Both the position numbers and the translations under genes were made by a program. From NCBI GenBank assembly GCA_007376285.1, contig VMFZ01000002.1, positions 1 to 52,042 of the forward strand: a DNA stretch of 52,042 bases. The letters run 5' to 3'. Under the pieces are notes generated by a model, which had not been told where the DNA came from, did not search any database, and saw only the letters and a list, made by a program, of their open reading frames with translations. Every line of letters begins with the position of its first letter. Positions within the stretch are counted from its first letter, which is position 1. Of this stretch, positions 15,917 to 23,196 are shown in pieces. The stretch comes from Parcubacteria group bacterium Gr01-1014_17 (lineage in GTDB: Bacteria > Patescibacteriota > Minisyncoccia > Phycocordibacterales > UBA10002).

Positions 15917-18900
15917 TTAGAGCGCTTTGTCGCTCAAGGTTTGCGGAGTCAGGTTGCTGGTTGGCAATCCTGCTACGCCATACCCGTTCAAGAAGTCGTT
16001 CGCAAGGGCGCCGGCCGTAATCGTTGTTTGCGTTGTCGTTGAGTACGGACTCCAGATGAAGTTGTCAGCACCCGCCAGTCCTGAGTTCACGAAGAATGTT
16101 GATGTTGCGAGGAATGAACCGTAGGTGGTCAAACTGCCGCTAGTCGGCGTTGAGGTCGCACCCGAGTATTCCGCAATATTAGCATAGAACTTCGTATCAC
16201 CCTGCAACTGTGTCGTTACCGAATAGGTCGTACCTGCTCCAGAGAGTGTCACATCACCGATAACTTCAAAGTACCGTGTGCCGCCCGCTGGAATTTGAAC
16301 CGTCGTAGACGCGTTCCCAGCGGTTTCCGCATAGATTTCAATGTCAGTTGAAGCGCTCGCCCACAAAGTGGGATTCATTGTTTTGTCGGTCGCCATAAGG
16401 GTACCGTCGGTCTGAATTCCGGAAACTATTCCTGTAAAGTCGGGATTAAGGAACGCGCGGACATTGATGTTATCCACCAAGTCGGCAATCACTGTCGCTG
16501 AAGATGTCGCGAACCGGAAAGTCAACTTGTTGATACCGATTGGACCCTTCGGAGAAGCAGTGATGCTGAATCTGTAGAGCGGCTTGTCAGAAGATGCGGT
16601 AAGCGAGGTACCGGTCGGAAGCGAAATATACTTCACCGTTGGTGTTGATTTCACGACGCGGAAGCCCGCTGATGCCGTATCGGAGCTCGTGCCACCGAGC
16701 GTCTTAGTTCCGCTCTGTGAGCCGGTACCAGCAACGCCTCCAAAACCAGTTGAAGCCGCGGATGTCCGAGTCGCCTCAAAGTCAACCGCAAGGAATGCGC
16801 CCGGAGTACCTGGTTGGCTGGTGCCTTGCGCTGCAAGGTCAACTTTGACCGTCAGGTCTTTATAGGCATCTTTGTCAACAATGAACTGAGAGCATCCTGC
16901 GCAAGTACTGACCGTTGTGGACGCCGTATTGTAATACGCGCCGGTCACAAAGGTCGCTTCGCCAACTTTATTCGCGCCGTCCCAGAGCGTCACTTTACCG
17001 CCACCCAAATCAGAGATTGAGCTAGACGCCTTTGCTGTTAACTGGAGCGCGATGTCGTTGATGCGCACCGCTTCGTTCGTTGCGCGAATGCGCAATACGC
17101 TTGCCACATAATCGGTCGTACCAGCCGCGGCAAGGGTATACGACGGGCTGTCTGCGGAGAGCTCAACCGTGAGCGAACCGCTGCTGGTTACCGTAATGGT
17201 CTGTCCGGCATTCGTATTCTCAGTAATCGTTACGGACGAACCGGATACCTTTCCGTTCGCGGTCGGAGATGATGCGTCGTTATAGCCGAACGAGAATGAA
17301 CCTGAGGTAATTGAAGACGGAATGTTGCACTTTGCCGCGAGCGTTAGCACCGTTCCTTTCGGAATCGTAAGCGTTGTGTCAAAGGTAAACGCTTGGCTAT
17401 TAGCATCACCTGCCGGGTCAACAGTGTTGGTTCCAGTTGTGAGCTGTGTTGAACCGTTGTAGAGGTTACAGCTCGTTACATTTGTGGAACCGCTGACCAA
17501 TTCATAGTCAAGTGGAAGTGAGTTCAAAGTCACATCCTCGCCTGAACTGATCGCAGACAACTGAATGTTTGCGAAGGTAAATTGCTGTGCGCCAGCGACA
17601 ATGGTCTGCGCCGACGGGCTTGAAGACACGCTAATCGCCAACGCCGCGGTCTTCACCGTCATGGTGCTTAATGCTACCGACGACGAGGTCATAGACGATG
17701 TTGAAATCGTCTTGCCTGTCACTTGACCGGTCACTGTAGTCCATGCCGTTGATGGCGTAAATGCAACTGCCACCGTGCCGTCTGAACCGAACCCTGAACC
17801 AACTTTTCCTTTCAATGTGTAGACCTTCTTGCCTACACCGTAGAGAATCGTATCACCCAAGGTCAAGGTGCCGGTGTGTCCAACATCTGCCGGACCAGCA
17901 ACCACCGTGCCATTTTCGTCAACGAGCGTTACATTGGTGATTTGCGCGTCGCCTCCAGCAGTCGCGCTACCGGTCGTCGTAAAGGTAAACGCGCTGGACG
18001 CAACCGTAATCGGCTCACCCTTCGTTTCTACAGAAAAACCACCGAGCGGTTGTCCTGCAAGTGTTACGGCAATGTTTGCCGCCGCAACTGATGTGGCATT
18101 CTGAATCGTGAGAGATCCTGTATCAACCGTTACGGTCTTGCCCGCGTACCAAATGGTGCCGCTGGTAAAACCCGTACCTGATGTCGGAGGCGTAATGCCG
18201 TATTTGTAGGTCTCACCCGTAATATAGATATCCGTGGTCTTTTCAATGTTAAACGCAACGGTGCGCCCAGAACCACCTACAATATCTCCCTTTAGGGAGA
18301 TTTCTTTGTTGAGGCCCTTCGCAATCACAATACCGCTTCCAAAGTTTGATGTGTAGTACTTTCCGTCTGAGGAAACTGTGGTTGGGTATGAAGTCCCGTC
18401 AACAATCGTCACGATATTCGCAAGGTCGGATGAACCAGCGGAAGACGCCTGATTCCACCGAATTGAGTGAATGCGTATGTCTTCTTGCGAGCCATCCGTA
18501 ACTTGGATAGCCGAGAATGTGTACCCTGTGATACCAACATTCTTGCTTGCCGCCGCATTCGGGTCAAGCGAACCTCGTTGGTTCGTTACAGAGCCGAGCG
18601 CCAGCGTTGAGTTGATGGTATGCGCCGCGCCGGTAATCGGGAGCGAGCCCGAAACCGCCGCAGAGGTGTTCACCGCAAGCAGTTTAAGGCTTGAGATTTC
18701 GCCCGCGCGCGCATCGTTGTTTGCCGCCATGTTGCCGGCAATCGTGTAGGTTTTTGAGGTGCCGGCTTTTATCGTAAACGCTTCGCCGAGCGTTGCTTGA
18801 TGATTGGAATTAAAGGTCTTGGAAACGCCGATTTGGGTGCCGTCCTCGCCAAGGAGAATGACGCCGCTAAACACTGCGTCACCCGCCAAAGCCGTGTGTT

Positions 18901-19573
18901 CAATTGTCAGGTTATTCACCGCCACATCGCCTGAACCGGCCGTGAGGGTGAACTTCGTAAACGGAACGCGCGCCGCGTTTTCAGGCGCGAGACCTGACGC
19001 TGGCTGTTGCGGAGAAGATACTACAAGTCCTGAGCCAGCCGGAACGGTTACCGTTGTGGTAGTCCCACCAGTTGTCGTGGTTGTAGTTGTCCCACCAGCT
19101 GAATTAACTTTTGCTCGAGTTGCAGGGCCGAAATATCCGACTGCTGGCGAAAGGCCGCTGGCTGCTTGATATTTCGCAACTGCTGAACGAGTCGCCGGAC
19201 CGAAGTAAGTTGACTCACTGCCAACAGAACCCGGACCGGACGCCGCTACAACATATCCTTTACTATTAAGAAACTTCTGAAGATCCTTCACATCGCTTCC
19301 AGTAGAACCTACCGTCAGATTACGAGTAAAGGTGGTGCTTGCAGTTGTCCCCGTTGAAGGAGAAGAAACTGCGGTGCGAGCTTGTGCCGCCTTGTCGGGA
19401 GAAATGATACCCAAGCTGATGAAAAGTTCCACCAGGTCTTTGAGCGTCATACTCTGTGCATTCGCAACTTGTACGAATGCTCCGGCAAAGAGAACCGCCG
19501 CCACTCCCACACCAACCAATCCTACCGCAAGCCATTTTGTCTTGGATGTATAAATGGTATTCATAAATAACAT
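15917..19573 (-). CDS. large S-layer-like surface protein with N-terminal peptidoglycan-binding domain
   Basis: signal peptide; SDVKDLQKFLNSKGYVVAASGPGSVGSESTYFGPATRSAVAKYQAASGL; long Thr/Ser/Gly/Ala beta-rich repeats; strong promoter and terminator. Confidence 0.8.
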   Translation of the reverse strand: MLFMNTIYTSKTKWLAVGLVGVGVAAVLFAGAFVQVANAQSMTLKDLVELFISLGIISPDKAAQARTAVSSPSTGTTASTTFTRNLTVGSTGSDVKDLQKFLNSKGYVVAASGPGSVGSESTYFGPATRSAVAKYQAASGLSPAVGYFGPATRAKVNSAGGTTTTTTTGGTTTTVTVPAGSGLVVSSPQQPASGLAPENAARVPFTKFTLTAGSGDVAVNNLTIEHTALAGDAVFSGVILLGEDGTQIGVSKTFNSNHQATLGEAFTIKAGTSKTYTIAGNMAANNDARAGEISSLKLLAVNTSAAVSGSLPITGAAHTINSTLALGSVTNQRGSLDPNAAASKNVGITGYTFSAIQVTDGSQEDIRIHSIRWNQASSAGSSDLANIVTIVDGTSYPTTVSSDGKYYTSNFGSGIVIAKGLNKEISLKGDIVGGSGRTVAFNIEKTTDIYITGETYKYGITPPTSGTGFTSGTIWYAGKTVTVDTGSLTIQNATSVAAANIAVTLAGQPLGGFSVETKGEPITVASSAFTFTTTGSATAGGDAQITNVTLVDENGTVVAGPADVGHTGTLTLGDTILYGVGKKVYTLKGKVGSGFGSDGTVAVAFTPSTAWTTVTGQVTGKTISTSSMTSSSVALSTMTVKTAALAISVSSSPSAQTIVAGAQQFTFANIQLSAISSGEDVTLNSLPLDYELVSGSTNVTSCNLYNGSTQLTTGTNTVDPAGDANSQAFTFDTTLTIPKGTVLTLAAKCNIPSSITSGSFSFGYNDASSPTANGKVSGSSVTITENTNAGQTITVTSSGSLTVELSADSPSYTLAAAGTTDYVASVLRIRATNEAVRINDIALQLTAKASSSISDLGGGKVTLWDGANKVGEATFVTGAYYNTASTTVSTCAGCSQFIVDKDAYKDLTVKVDLAAQGTSQPGTPGAFLAVDFEATRTSAASTGFGGVAGTGSQSGTKTLGGTSSDTASAGFRVVKSTPTVKYISLPTGTSLTASSDKPLYRFSITASPKGPIGINKLTFRFATSSATVIADLVDNINVRAFLNPDFTGIVSGIQTDGTLMATDKTMNPTLWASASTDIEIYAETAGNASTTVQIPAGGTRYFEVIGDVTLSGAGTTYSVTTQLQGDTKFYANIAEYSGATSTPTSGSLTTYGSFLATSTFFVNSGLAGADNFIWSPYSTTTQTTITAGALANDFLNGYGVAGLPTSNLTPQTLSDKAL

Positions 19574-19896: not shown

Positions 19897-19998
19897 CGAA
19901 CACAAAAGTCATTATAAGGCACATACTAAATAAGCGCCAAATATATATGTGGATAACCCACATAATGTGAGTATTGCACAGCTCTTAAAACCAGTCAA

Positions 19999-20925
19999 TT
20001 AAGCGTCTTTTTCTCTTTCAAACAACAGCGGCTGAACAAAAGAATAGGAACTCCATCTCTTCTCTCCTAGTTTTTTCAATACACCCCTATCTACCAATTC
20101 GTATAATTCTCGTTGAATTGTTTTTTCTCCACAGTCATTTATAAAGGACAAAATCTCTTTAACGGTCAATTTCTTTTTGTCCTTTAGAGCATCTATAATT
20201 GCTTTTTGTCTCGCAAAACGCCTTTCTAACCTTATTTGTCTTATGTTTTTTGTCGTATCCTTTTTTACTAAAATGGAGACTTCTTTCTGTCCGTGAGATT
20301 CATAAAGGACATTATTAGTTGGCGGCATATTCTGTATCGGACTTATCAATTCATTTTCGTAATCTCTAACGGACAATTTGCGCGTCCCGCGCGGTCTTCC
20401 GCGCACCTGTTTCCGGCGAAAAGAAACTCCTTGTATTTTTGCAATCGGCAACGCAATATCCCCACCTTTCATTTTGAATATCTGAACATTAAAAATAGGG
20501 AAAAAACTCTGTATTTCATGCTTCAAAAGTGAAGTGTTCGCCTCCGAAACAGCTCCGCCTTCTTCTCCAACATTTAAGAGCGACACCAACACAGAAAGAC
20601 ATCCTAAGAAATGAGCGCGATGTATGGGTTCATTCGCTTTGTTTTTATCATCTCGTATAAAGGACATCACTCTATCAATTAGTTCTGTAGCCACTGTCCG
20701 TAACTTCCACTTTAATGGTTCACTGTCCGATAGAAAGTTTGTTATAAGGTATATCGCACGAACAAAGTTCTCCACCTTTTTAACAAGGAAAATCAAGTAC
20801 TTTCCTCCTATAAAGGACATATCTGGGTAATCGGTGACTTTATAAAGGACATTACTATTTGCCCTTATGTCCTTTATGGTGTTTTTGCTCATATTGTTCT
20901 GTCCTTTATAAATTCTAACGGACAT
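19999..20925 (-). CDS. winged-HTH transcriptional regulator (start may be 20892)
   Basis: C-terminal wHTH IIDALKDKKKLTVKEILSFINDCGEKTIQRELYELVDRGVLKKLGEKRWSSY; many TGTCCTTTATA motifs in and upstream of the ORF. Confidence 0.7.
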   Translation of the reverse strand: MSVRIYKGQNNMSKNTIKDIRANSNVLYKVTDYPDMSFIGGKYLIFLVKKVENFVRAIYLITNFLSDSEPLKWKLRTVATELIDRVMSFIRDDKNKANEPIHRAHFLGCLSVLVSLLNVGEEGGAVSEANTSLLKHEIQSFFPIFNVQIFKMKGGDIALPIAKIQGVSFRRKQVRGRPRGTRKLSVRDYENELISPIQNMPPTNNVLYESHGQKEVSILVKKDTTKNIRQIRLERRFARQKAIIDALKDKKKLTVKEILSFINDCGEKTIQRELYELVDRGVLKKLGEKRWSSYSFVQPLLFEREKDA

Positions 20926-20960
20926 CTATAAAGGACATAGCAAGTATACATAAAGGACAT
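20139..20960. repeat. Cluster of TATAAAGGACA(T) / TGTCCTTTATA motifs in the wHTH gene and promoter
   Basis: copies at 20139, 20178, 20301, 20656, 20809, 20841, 20867, 20900, 20927, 20949; variant TCTAACGGACA at 20365 and 20914. Confidence 0.9.
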
Positions 20961-20972
20961 GTTCGTTATCAA
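20943..20972 (-). promoter_or_regulatory. sigma70-type promoter of the wHTH gene with a motif copy in the spacer
   Basis: TTGATA (20967-20972) - 18 nt - TATACT (20943-20948); motif copies at 20949-20960 and 20927-20938. Confidence 0.65.
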
Positions 20973-21057: not shown

Positions 21058-23196
21058 ATGGCAAAAAGAAACAAAGAACGGGGATGGCATTCAATTAAAC
21101 TGGAAACATGGCGCGGTATCGCCACGGTGATTTTATTGGCGCTTGCAATATTTTCGGTTCTTTCTGGTATAGGTAAAGCTGGCGCTGTCGGTACTGTATT
21201 TTTTAACACGCTATCGAATATATTCGGTGTCGCCTATGTTCTCATTCCTCTTGTATTGTTAGGCGGCGGTATACTGATGCTCCGTCCATCAGAAAACGAG
21301 AATATGGCGCCAATCATCAAGATTGTATGTTTGTTTGTCTTTATTGCCGGAGCGCTCGGGCTTATAGGACTCTTCCTTCCATCGCGCGGGGGGCTTGCAG
21401 GAGTTTCAATGGCCAATTTCTTTGTATCGCTTTTTGACCGCTATGCAAGCGCGGTGATACTTAGTGCGCTTACAGTCATACCTCTCTTGATTATATTCAA
21501 CACACGCTTTTCATTTTCGTCGTTTGTGAACGCGTGGCAAAAAATAGTCGGAATCATTCGCCCGCCTATGCGTGTTTCCGATGAAATCGCAGATACAGCG
21601 ACCGTCTATGAACAAAATACCGATGAAACAGAAACCCATGAAAACAACGCGGGCGCCGCAGAAACATCTGAACCCTCAATCCAAACTGACGATAACGGCT
21701 GGCAACCAAGAAAATCTACGCGCCTTAAATTCGGAGCGTATGAGCCGCCGCCGTTATCTATTCTTGAACGCGACCAAGGAAAACCAGATGTTGGCGACAT
21801 AAAAGCAAATTCAAATGTAGTAAAGCGTACCCTTCGAAACTTCGGCATTGAAGTTGAGATGGATGAAGTGTCTATCGGACCATCGGTAACTCGCTATGCG
21901 CTTAAACCAGCGGAAGGAGTCAAACTAACCGCAATCGTTGCGCGTCAGAACGACCTCGCTCTCGCGCTTGCAGCGCACTCTATAAGAATTGAAGCGCCGA
22001 TTCCAGGCAGGTCACTCGTTGGTATTGAAATCCCAAACCAGGCGCGCGCTACAGTTCGGCTCGGCGCGCTTATTGGAAGCGAGGAATTCGCGTCATCCGA
22101 CAAACATCTGCTTTTTGCGCTCGGCAAAAGCGTTGCAGGCAAACAGCACTTCACTAACCTCGCAAGAATGCCGCACCTTCTTATCGCCGGAGCAACGGGC
22201 TCGGGAAAATCAGTAGCAATTCATACGCTTGTTGCATCGCTCATTTACCGCAATTCTCCGGAAGCGCTCCGCTTTATGCTCATTGACCCGAAGCGGGTAG
22301 AACTCACGCTTTATAACGGCATACCGCACCTGTTAACCCCCGTGATTACGGATGCAAAAAAAGCGATACAGGCATTGCGGTGGGCGGCAAAAGAAATGGA
22401 ACGGAGGTACAACATTCTGGAAGGAGAATCGGTGCGCGACATTGATTCATATCACAAAAATGTATTTCTTCCTGCGCGTGAAAAAGCGGACCCAATGCCG
22501 TATATCGTAATTATTATTGACGAACTTGCTGACATTATGTCTACCTACCCGCGCGAACTTGAGGCGGCCGTCGTTCGTCTAGCGCAGATGAGCCGTGCGG
22601 TCGGTATTCACCTCGTGCTCTCTACTCAGCGCCCGTCAGTCAATGTCATTACGGGACTTATCAAAGCAAATATACCATCGCGTATCGCGCTCCAAGTGGT
22701 CTCGCAGATTGACTCGCGCACTATTTTGGATGCCGCTGGAGCCGAGAAACTTCTCGGAAGCGGTGATATGCTCTTTCTATCGGGAGAACGCTCTAAGCCC
22801 GAACGCATCCAGTCCGCATTTATTTCCGAACATGAAGTCAAAAAGATTACAAGCTATCTTACCAACCGATACCCGGATAGAGGCGGCACGGAACTCCTCA
22901 CGCCAAACGGGAATGTATCTTCTGGCGCACTGGAGCACTCATTTACGGATAGCGATGATGTAGATGACGACCTCTATGAAGCCGCGAAAGAAGAAGTGGA
23001 ACGGGCGGGTAAGGCCTCTACTTCGTACTTGCAACGGAAACTGCGCGTCGGCTATGCGCGCGCGGCGCGGATTATGGACATTCTTGAAGAGCGCGGCATT
23101 ATAGGACCGTCTGACGGCGCAAAGCCGCGCGAGATTCGTAGTGGCCTATCGCAAGAATCTCCTCTTGCACCAACCCTTCCAGAGGAAACAGTATGA
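21058..23196 (+). CDS. ftsK: DNA translocase FtsK/SpoIIIE
   Basis: N-term TM segments, LIAGATGSGKSVAIHTLVASLIYRNSPEALRFMLIDPKRVEL, VIIIDELADIM, C-term gamma-like wHTH. Confidence 0.95.
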   Translation: MAKRNKERGWHSIKLETWRGIATVILLALAIFSVLSGIGKAGAVGTVFFNTLSNIFGVAYVLIPLVLLGGGILMLRPSENENMAPIIKIVCLFVFIAGALGLIGLFLPSRGGLAGVSMANFFVSLFDRYASAVILSALTVIPLLIIFNTRFSFSSFVNAWQKIVGIIRPPMRVSDEIADTATVYEQNTDETETHENNAGAAETSEPSIQTDDNGWQPRKSTRLKFGAYEPPPLSILERDQGKPDVGDIKANSNVVKRTLRNFGIEVEMDEVSIGPSVTRYALKPAEGVKLTAIVARQNDLALALAAHSIRIEAPIPGRSLVGIEIPNQARATVRLGALIGSEEFASSDKHLLFALGKSVAGKQHFTNLARMPHLLIAGATGSGKSVAIHTLVASLIYRNSPEALRFMLIDPKRVELTLYNGIPHLLTPVITDAKKAIQALRWAAKEMERRYNILEGESVRDIDSYHKNVFLPAREKADPMPYIVIIIDELADIMSTYPRELEAAVVRLAQMSRAVGIHLVLSTQRPSVNVITGLIKANIPSRIALQVVSQIDSRTILDAAGAEKLLGSGDMLFLSGERSKPERIQSAFISEHEVKKITSYLTNRYPDRGGTELLTPNGNVSSGALEHSFTDSDDVDDDLYEAAKEEVERAGKASTSYLQRKLRVGYARAARIMDILEERGIIGPSDGAKPREIRSGLSQESPLAPTLPEETV

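Follow-up and report, generated by a model that had tools for sequence, protein, structure and literature searches.

A DNA word that fills a winged-helix regulator gene recurs, interlocked with DnaA boxes, at the presumptive chromosome origin of a patescibacterial order

Introduction

Why should a single regulator gene carry so many copies of one short DNA word, scattered through its coding sequence as well as its upstream region? The question arises from a 52-kb stretch of a Parcubacteria genome (52,042 nucleotides; hereafter the window), in which a winged helix-turn-helix (wHTH) gene is saturated with what looks like an operator. Here, we follow this word through the gene, its orthologues and the genomes of related bacteria, where it leads to the probable origin of replication.

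Results

Twelve copies of a nine-base word in and upstream of one gene

The first-pass annotation of this DNA had listed some ten copies of the word plus two variants, and all of these were found, at positions off by about one base at most. In the degenerate form TAAMGGACA, the word occurs at 12 sites in the 822-bp span 20139-20960, as compared to 0.013 expected from base composition, and is absent from the remaining 51 kb of the window. The form TAAAGGACA occupies positions 20142-20150, 20303-20311, 20658-20666, 20811-20819, 20843-20851, 20929-20937 and 20951-20959 on the plus strand and 20178-20186, 20868-20876 and 20900-20908 on the minus strand; the variant TAACGGACA lies at 20367-20375 and 20916-20924, both on the plus strand. 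For the word AAAGGACA, 10 of the 11 occurrences in the window fall within the wHTH-gene span, whereas shuffled sequences give 1.9 ± 1.1.

Alignment of three congeners showed 10 of the 12 sites to be common to all three or nearly so, with 91-92% identity inside the sites versus 65-76% outside. Individually, each site is kept in two congeners, with three qualifications: the one at 20303 is read as TGTCTTTTA in one of the two, the one at 20951 is kept in a single congener, as TGTCTTTTA, and the one at 20900 is likewise kept in a single congener. The variant at 20367 is retained in its C/G form. Within the gene, the copies occupy several reading frames and both strands and, as detailed below, exceed the number found after synonymous shuffling of orthologues. 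This rules out a repeat at the peptide level and bears out the earlier claim that it is the DNA, not the peptide, that is conserved.

The sites surround a probable start codon and a predicted promoter

The wHTH open reading frame (19999-20925, minus strand) encodes 308 aa when read from M1, and has orthologues in 54 of 61 relatives. The true start is probably M12 (the ATG ending at 20892) rather than M1, as judged from the near-invariance of M12 among orthologues. Since this is the conserved start, the sites at 20900 and 20916, the latter overlapping the M1 codons, would lie in the leader; the Shine-Dalgarno-like AAAGGA placed ahead of M12 is itself contributed by the copy of the word at 20900-20908. 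Further upstream, the previously proposed promoter TTGATA-18-TATACT (20943-20972, minus strand) is present as a consensus match, a class of prediction that does not exceed chance here. The site at 20951, one half of a degenerate palindrome, fills the spacer between its -35 and -10 elements, and the site at 20929 follows directly downstream of the -10, positions that would suit a classical repressor. Across nearly all wHTH loci, the gene is accompanied by the divergent ftsK (21058-23196, plus strand, in the window), and recA, efp and ssb are frequent near neighbours.

A helical bundle, a disordered linker and a winged helix

AlphaFold2 divides the protein into a four-helix bundle (residues 42-146; 20488-20802, minus strand; pLDDT 86-98), a disordered linker (residues 152-223; 20257-20472, minus strand; pLDDT < 50) and a winged helix (residues 228-296; 20038-20244, minus strand) with a near-invariant EKT.QR recognition helix and an RRW wing. 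Two structure models show this architecture. The linker, where the sites at 20303 and 20367 lie and which hosts sites in many orthologues, consists of unconserved columns rich in KGH, KDI, MSFI and NVLY, i.e. translations of the motif.

The fold and the profile matches agree with the original wHTH assignment. In structure comparisons, the C-terminal domain resembles BlaI/MecI/AntR as well as the AspA/pNOB8 centromere-binding proteins, and a DeoR-type HTH is matched by 18 of 21 members at E ≤ 1 (best 2.2e-6), the window protein itself scoring 17.7 bits against PF08220, for which the Pfam cut-off is 21 bits. A search of PDB sequences with the wHTH protein returned no match, and a PHROGs scan yielded weak wHTH matches and nothing else. 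BlaI/MecI penicillinase repressors are dimers of ~120 aa with a C-terminal dimerisation domain; membership of their family (PF03965) is rejected by a score of 16.0 bits versus a cut-off of 22.6 and by the different domain order. A response regulator akin to CtrA, Spo0A, HP1021 or MtrA is likewise rejected, the N-terminus being an all-helical bundle with no Pfam receiver match.

For the bundle, the best Foldseek match was 2gsc, an S23-like bundle; the relation to S23/bAvd proteins (2gsc/2rld) amounts to a TM-score by target of 0.74-0.80 and a Foldseek E of 0.004-0.04, without a sequence match. Several S23/bAvd proteins are pentamers, and the modelled bundle might similarly serve for oligomerisation.

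The word is maintained in orthologues beyond codon constraint

Full-length relatives of the protein are almost confined to the order; in other classes, matches extend to the winged helix alone, and the genes behind these half-matches lack the word. Within the order, comparison of homologues with shuffled controls, as the first-pass annotation had suggested, favours selection on the DNA: the word is widespread among orthologues, with 187 in-gene copies of TAA[AC][AG]GACA in 54 orthologues versus 35 expected after synonymous shuffling, and an in-gene density of 4.08 per kb versus 0.037 per kb in the background. The figure of 35 overestimates chance because the shuffles preserve amino acids, some of which (KGH, KDI, MSFI, NVLY) are present owing to the sites. 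Several orthologues hold no or one exact copy.

Spacings between copies are also structured. Among direct repeats, distances of 11-13 and 21-24 bp stand out; inverted pairs peak at an offset of 9. As the direct-repeat spacings approximate whole helical turns, binding to the same face of the DNA, and hence cooperative binding, is likely. A short homologue lacking the linker occurs in a genome of the same class but a sister order (G411), at a locus (L199) with TAGGACAT repeats at 1406, 1993, 2014 and 2027. Perhaps TAGGACAT is a divergent counterpart of the word; this genome showed no further TAGGACAT cluster, and total counts equal the control.

A second cluster lies at cca, yraN and rpsO

The word could have been equally frequent across the genome, a possibility raised at the outset; instead, it clusters in just two loci. 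In the 610-kb genome from which the window derives, 26 of 30 copies of TAAAGGACA fall in the wHTH gene and at a second place, contig C27:11655-14214. The latter holds the perfect palindromes TAAAGGACATGTCCTTTA and TAACGGACATGTCCGTTA, from which it follows that the word as first described is a half-site. Clusters in the wHTH gene and in the cca/yraN/rpsO region recur across many families of the order. In 40 mapped stretches, sites lay within or close to cca, yraN, rpsO and a neighbouring nuclease gene, and in an unbiased palindrome scan of 85,462 species all five patescibacterial matches (Kaiser-, Taylor- and Adlerbacteria and two others; one being contig MHSB01000049.1 of Ca. Taylorbacteria, 18,135 bp) fell at cca-yraN. 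Selfish palindromic repeats of the RPE type are ruled out by there being just two clusters per genome rather than dispersed copies, and a DNA-uptake-type signal by the word not being genome-wide.

At one locus (L039, 13218-13352), the CCA-adding enzyme contains the low-complexity insert KGHNDSHKGHNKLSNGHMSVRNVLYNSKGHYKSYKGHITDPYKGQED, which consists almost wholly of copies of the word, and several orthologues lacking in-gene sites are shorter. Near another cca (L116 2552-3832, genome G024), a tyrosine recombinase gene carries four copies.

The cca-yraN-rpsO region is almost certainly oriC

Of 12 genomes, 10 show a GC-skew switch no more than about 40 kb from the word cluster. The closed genome G014 has its cumulative-skew minimum at 75-92 kb, with cca at 82 kb and dnaA at 51 kb, and G015, G747, G653, G531, G055, G545, G501, G563 and G441 likewise turn from negative to positive skew at the cluster itself or no further than about 40 kb from it. 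The skew was read around the circle from a sampled cumulative curve, with the local sign change taken as decisive, and locates an origin to about ±25-40 kb; the sequence of G556 covers one side of the cluster and the contig of G006 is too short for the test. All of this evidence comes from relatives' genomes, the origin contig of the window genome measuring 23 kb. One genome is contrary: in G048, the switch (60-70 kb on C2) lies beside dnaA, about 60 kb from the cca/yraN cluster (120-128 kb), which could reflect a rearrangement, a mis-assembly or an origin shift.

Partition sites point to the same place. Allowing up to two mismatches, 284 kb of origin loci yielded 39 parS-like sites and 973 kb of background yielded none; 58 of 61 genomes encode ParB. 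The skew, the parS sites in the region and the separate presence of ParB together mark this region as the origin domain and the word as not that of ParB. Some parS-like sites lie inside or between cca and yraN (L039 12909, in cca; L122 9022; L113 10746; L124 8249), and the domain is packed entirely into protein-coding genes; parB itself is remote from the parS cluster (G014: 712 kb). The dnaA gene is about 31-60 kb from the predicted origin (G014:C1:51371, G015:C5:135253, G027:C2:130592, G048:C2:68742), so the rule that oriC sits beside dnaA would mislead in this order.

The word interlocks with DnaA boxes at fixed offsets

The origin loci contain 33 perfect DnaA boxes, 26 of them no more than 30 bp from the word; of the 22 perfect boxes in 1.43 Mb of background, none is that close. 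The interlock occurs in 17 of 18 origin loci at fixed offsets and takes two forms, cores A and B, which flank cca. In core A, TGTCC[T/G]TTATACACATATCCACNGACTTATCCACAG, the word shares TTA with TTATACACA, a DnaA box that has two others behind it; the word thus overlaps the outermost of three tandem boxes (TGTCCTTTATACACATATCCACNGACTTATCCACA / TGTCCTTTATACACA), where the flank is rich in AT (0.67-0.68 next to the motif versus about 0.58). Core B, TTATCCACAGNNATGTCCTTTACA(A)TGTCCTTTA, comprises a DnaA box followed by two direct repeats. With up to three mismatches allowed, core A turned up in 127 of 395 genomes from the order, almost always as a single copy; none of 31 genomes from elsewhere contained it. 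Co-variation of TAAAGGACA and TAAAAGACA between oriC and the wHTH gene is suggestive only.

Discussion

We consider it likely that the wHTH protein is a new origin-binding regulator, which cooperates or competes with DnaA at oriC and uses the same sites to regulate its own gene. Its winged helix would recognise TMTAAMGGACAT, half of TAAMGGACATGTCCKTTA, and its main targets would be its own gene and the chromosome origin, located within and beside cca and yraN. Given the overlap in core A and the two helically phased direct repeats that follow the DnaA box in core B, the protein would assemble beside DnaA or compete with it and so set the time or frequency of initiation, while its own level would be controlled through sites in promoter, leader and ORF. 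That it binds the word is suggested by the presence of the word in its own gene and by their shared taxonomic range; that it competes with DnaA, oligomerises and bridges sites, and whether its effect is positive or negative, are further steps that we infer.

This reading recasts the earlier proposals for the gene. Autoregulation stands and is well supported, with sites in the promoter spacer, leader and ORF conserved beyond codon constraint, and of the cooperative spreading then envisaged, cooperative binding is plausible given the 11-13 and 21-24 bp repeats. A self-contained autoregulatory, titration or memory switch, however, misses the main point, namely that the same word is a DnaA-interlocked origin element; the cluster in the wHTH gene would then be the second half of an origin-control system. 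As the wHTH locus is separated from core A by about 181 kb in G014, 130 kb in G015 and 141 kb in G055, the array is copied some time after initiation, and a titration or timing role is possible. One may go further and picture a new class of system, in which an oligomeric winged-helix protein with flexible linkers ties a two-core origin to an array in its own gene, whose duplication 130-180 kb later resets the free protein and so acts as a replication timer; we regard this extended version as speculative and rather doubtful.

A conventional transcription factor that regulates itself and a few other genes (cca, yraN and rpsO), with DnaA boxes and parS nearby through the location of these genes at the origin, is the least improbable of the alternatives, albeit an unlikely one. 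Sites do flank the promoters of the wHTH gene, rpsO and yraN and come near that of cca, and the winged helix is of a BlaI/MecI/DeoR type. Yet the spacing to DnaA boxes is fixed across families, to the point of overlap in core A, sites occur deep inside and downstream of cca, and they track the DnaA boxes where gene order differs (in G048, yraN is about 7 kb from cca).

Still less probable is a second centromere-like or origin-organising system, in which the protein, instead of controlling initiation, serves segregation by bridging or condensing the origin region and the wHTH locus. The predicted oligomerisation domain, the flexible linkers and the AspA/pNOB8-like winged helix would fit this role, as would origin-proximal arrays with several sites inside coding genes, a likeness to ParB-parS (the B. 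subtilis parS is located in the parB gene). However, the protein is not ParB, as it lacks ParB_N (PF02195), the word is unlike TGTTTCACGTGAAACA-type parS, and ParB is encoded elsewhere in the same genomes, with canonical parS in the very region; nor was a partner ATPase seen beside the wHTH gene, and the interlock with DnaA boxes speaks against segregation as well. A binder other than the wHTH protein, acting on the word at oriC and repressing or marking the wHTH gene, is highly improbable: protein and word are linked by co-occurrence only, but outside the origin no locus other than the wHTH gene is saturated with the word across dozens of genomes.

The favoured origin-regulator model has parallels in better-known bacteria. 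Autoregulation is common among master regulators of the CtrA, Spo0A and AdpA type. At oriC, the sites of CtrA (Caulobacter), Spo0A (Bacillus), AdpA (Streptomyces) and HP1021 overlap DnaA boxes, resulting in competition with DnaA (PMC4285127), and the sites described here similarly overlap or adjoin such boxes. CtrA, Spo0A and AdpA belong to the response regulators or the AraC-type proteins and control regulons spread across the genome, whereas the present system comprises two site clusters per genome and a protein that lacks a receiver and differs in fold architecture. HP1021, an orphan regulator of Helicobacter pylori, binds multiple short sites in a bipartite origin and competes with DnaA (PMC4285127), which recalls cores A and B on either side of cca. 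In contrast to the wHTH protein, which is unrelated by sequence to CtrA and HP1021, HP1021 is an atypical response regulator with an effect on about 80 genes and the recognition sequence TGTT[TA]C[TA]. Chromosomal loci that tune initiation include datA/DARS in E. coli and crtS in Vibrio. Like these, a cluster 130-180 kb from oriC could serve titration or timing; unlike these, it lies inside the regulator's gene, without DnaA boxes interlocked with the word.

For the Peribacteria, short repeats and DnaA-box-like sequences have been described near the GC-skew origin in a 2016 paper, the consulted portion of which, unlike the situation in this order, names no protein, no shared word and no link to a regulator gene (PMC4736985). 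In the literature searched, from which subscription journals and bioRxiv mostly fell out of scope, the word is undescribed, there is no oriC or origin regulator for this order, and for Patescibacteria as a whole there are few descriptions of oriC and no origin-binding regulator. Through the present analysis, one large order gains an origin sequence and position that can be put to the test, together with a candidate regulator with a defined DNA word, whose sites are kept inside its own coding sequence across the order and shape disordered regions of the protein. It thereby offers a handle on replication timing in ultra-small, host-dependent and for the most part uncultured bacteria.

A separate feature of the wHTH loci concerns DnaA itself. 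Between the wHTH gene and a giant surface-protein gene (15917-19573) lies a perfect DnaA box, TTATCCACA (19948-19956, minus strand), which abuts a promoter -35; the arrangement TTATCCACA-N-TTTTGC..-TATAAT (19911-19956) reads into the surface-protein gene. A box abutting the -35 is found in the same place in most wHTH loci (e.g. L103 9897, L110 5000, L139 7934). Might this be a conserved, DnaA-controlled promoter of the surface-protein gene? The 21 wHTH loci contain 21 instances of a DnaA box with TATAAT 30-50 bp beyond it, as compared to two in 1.43 Mb of background.
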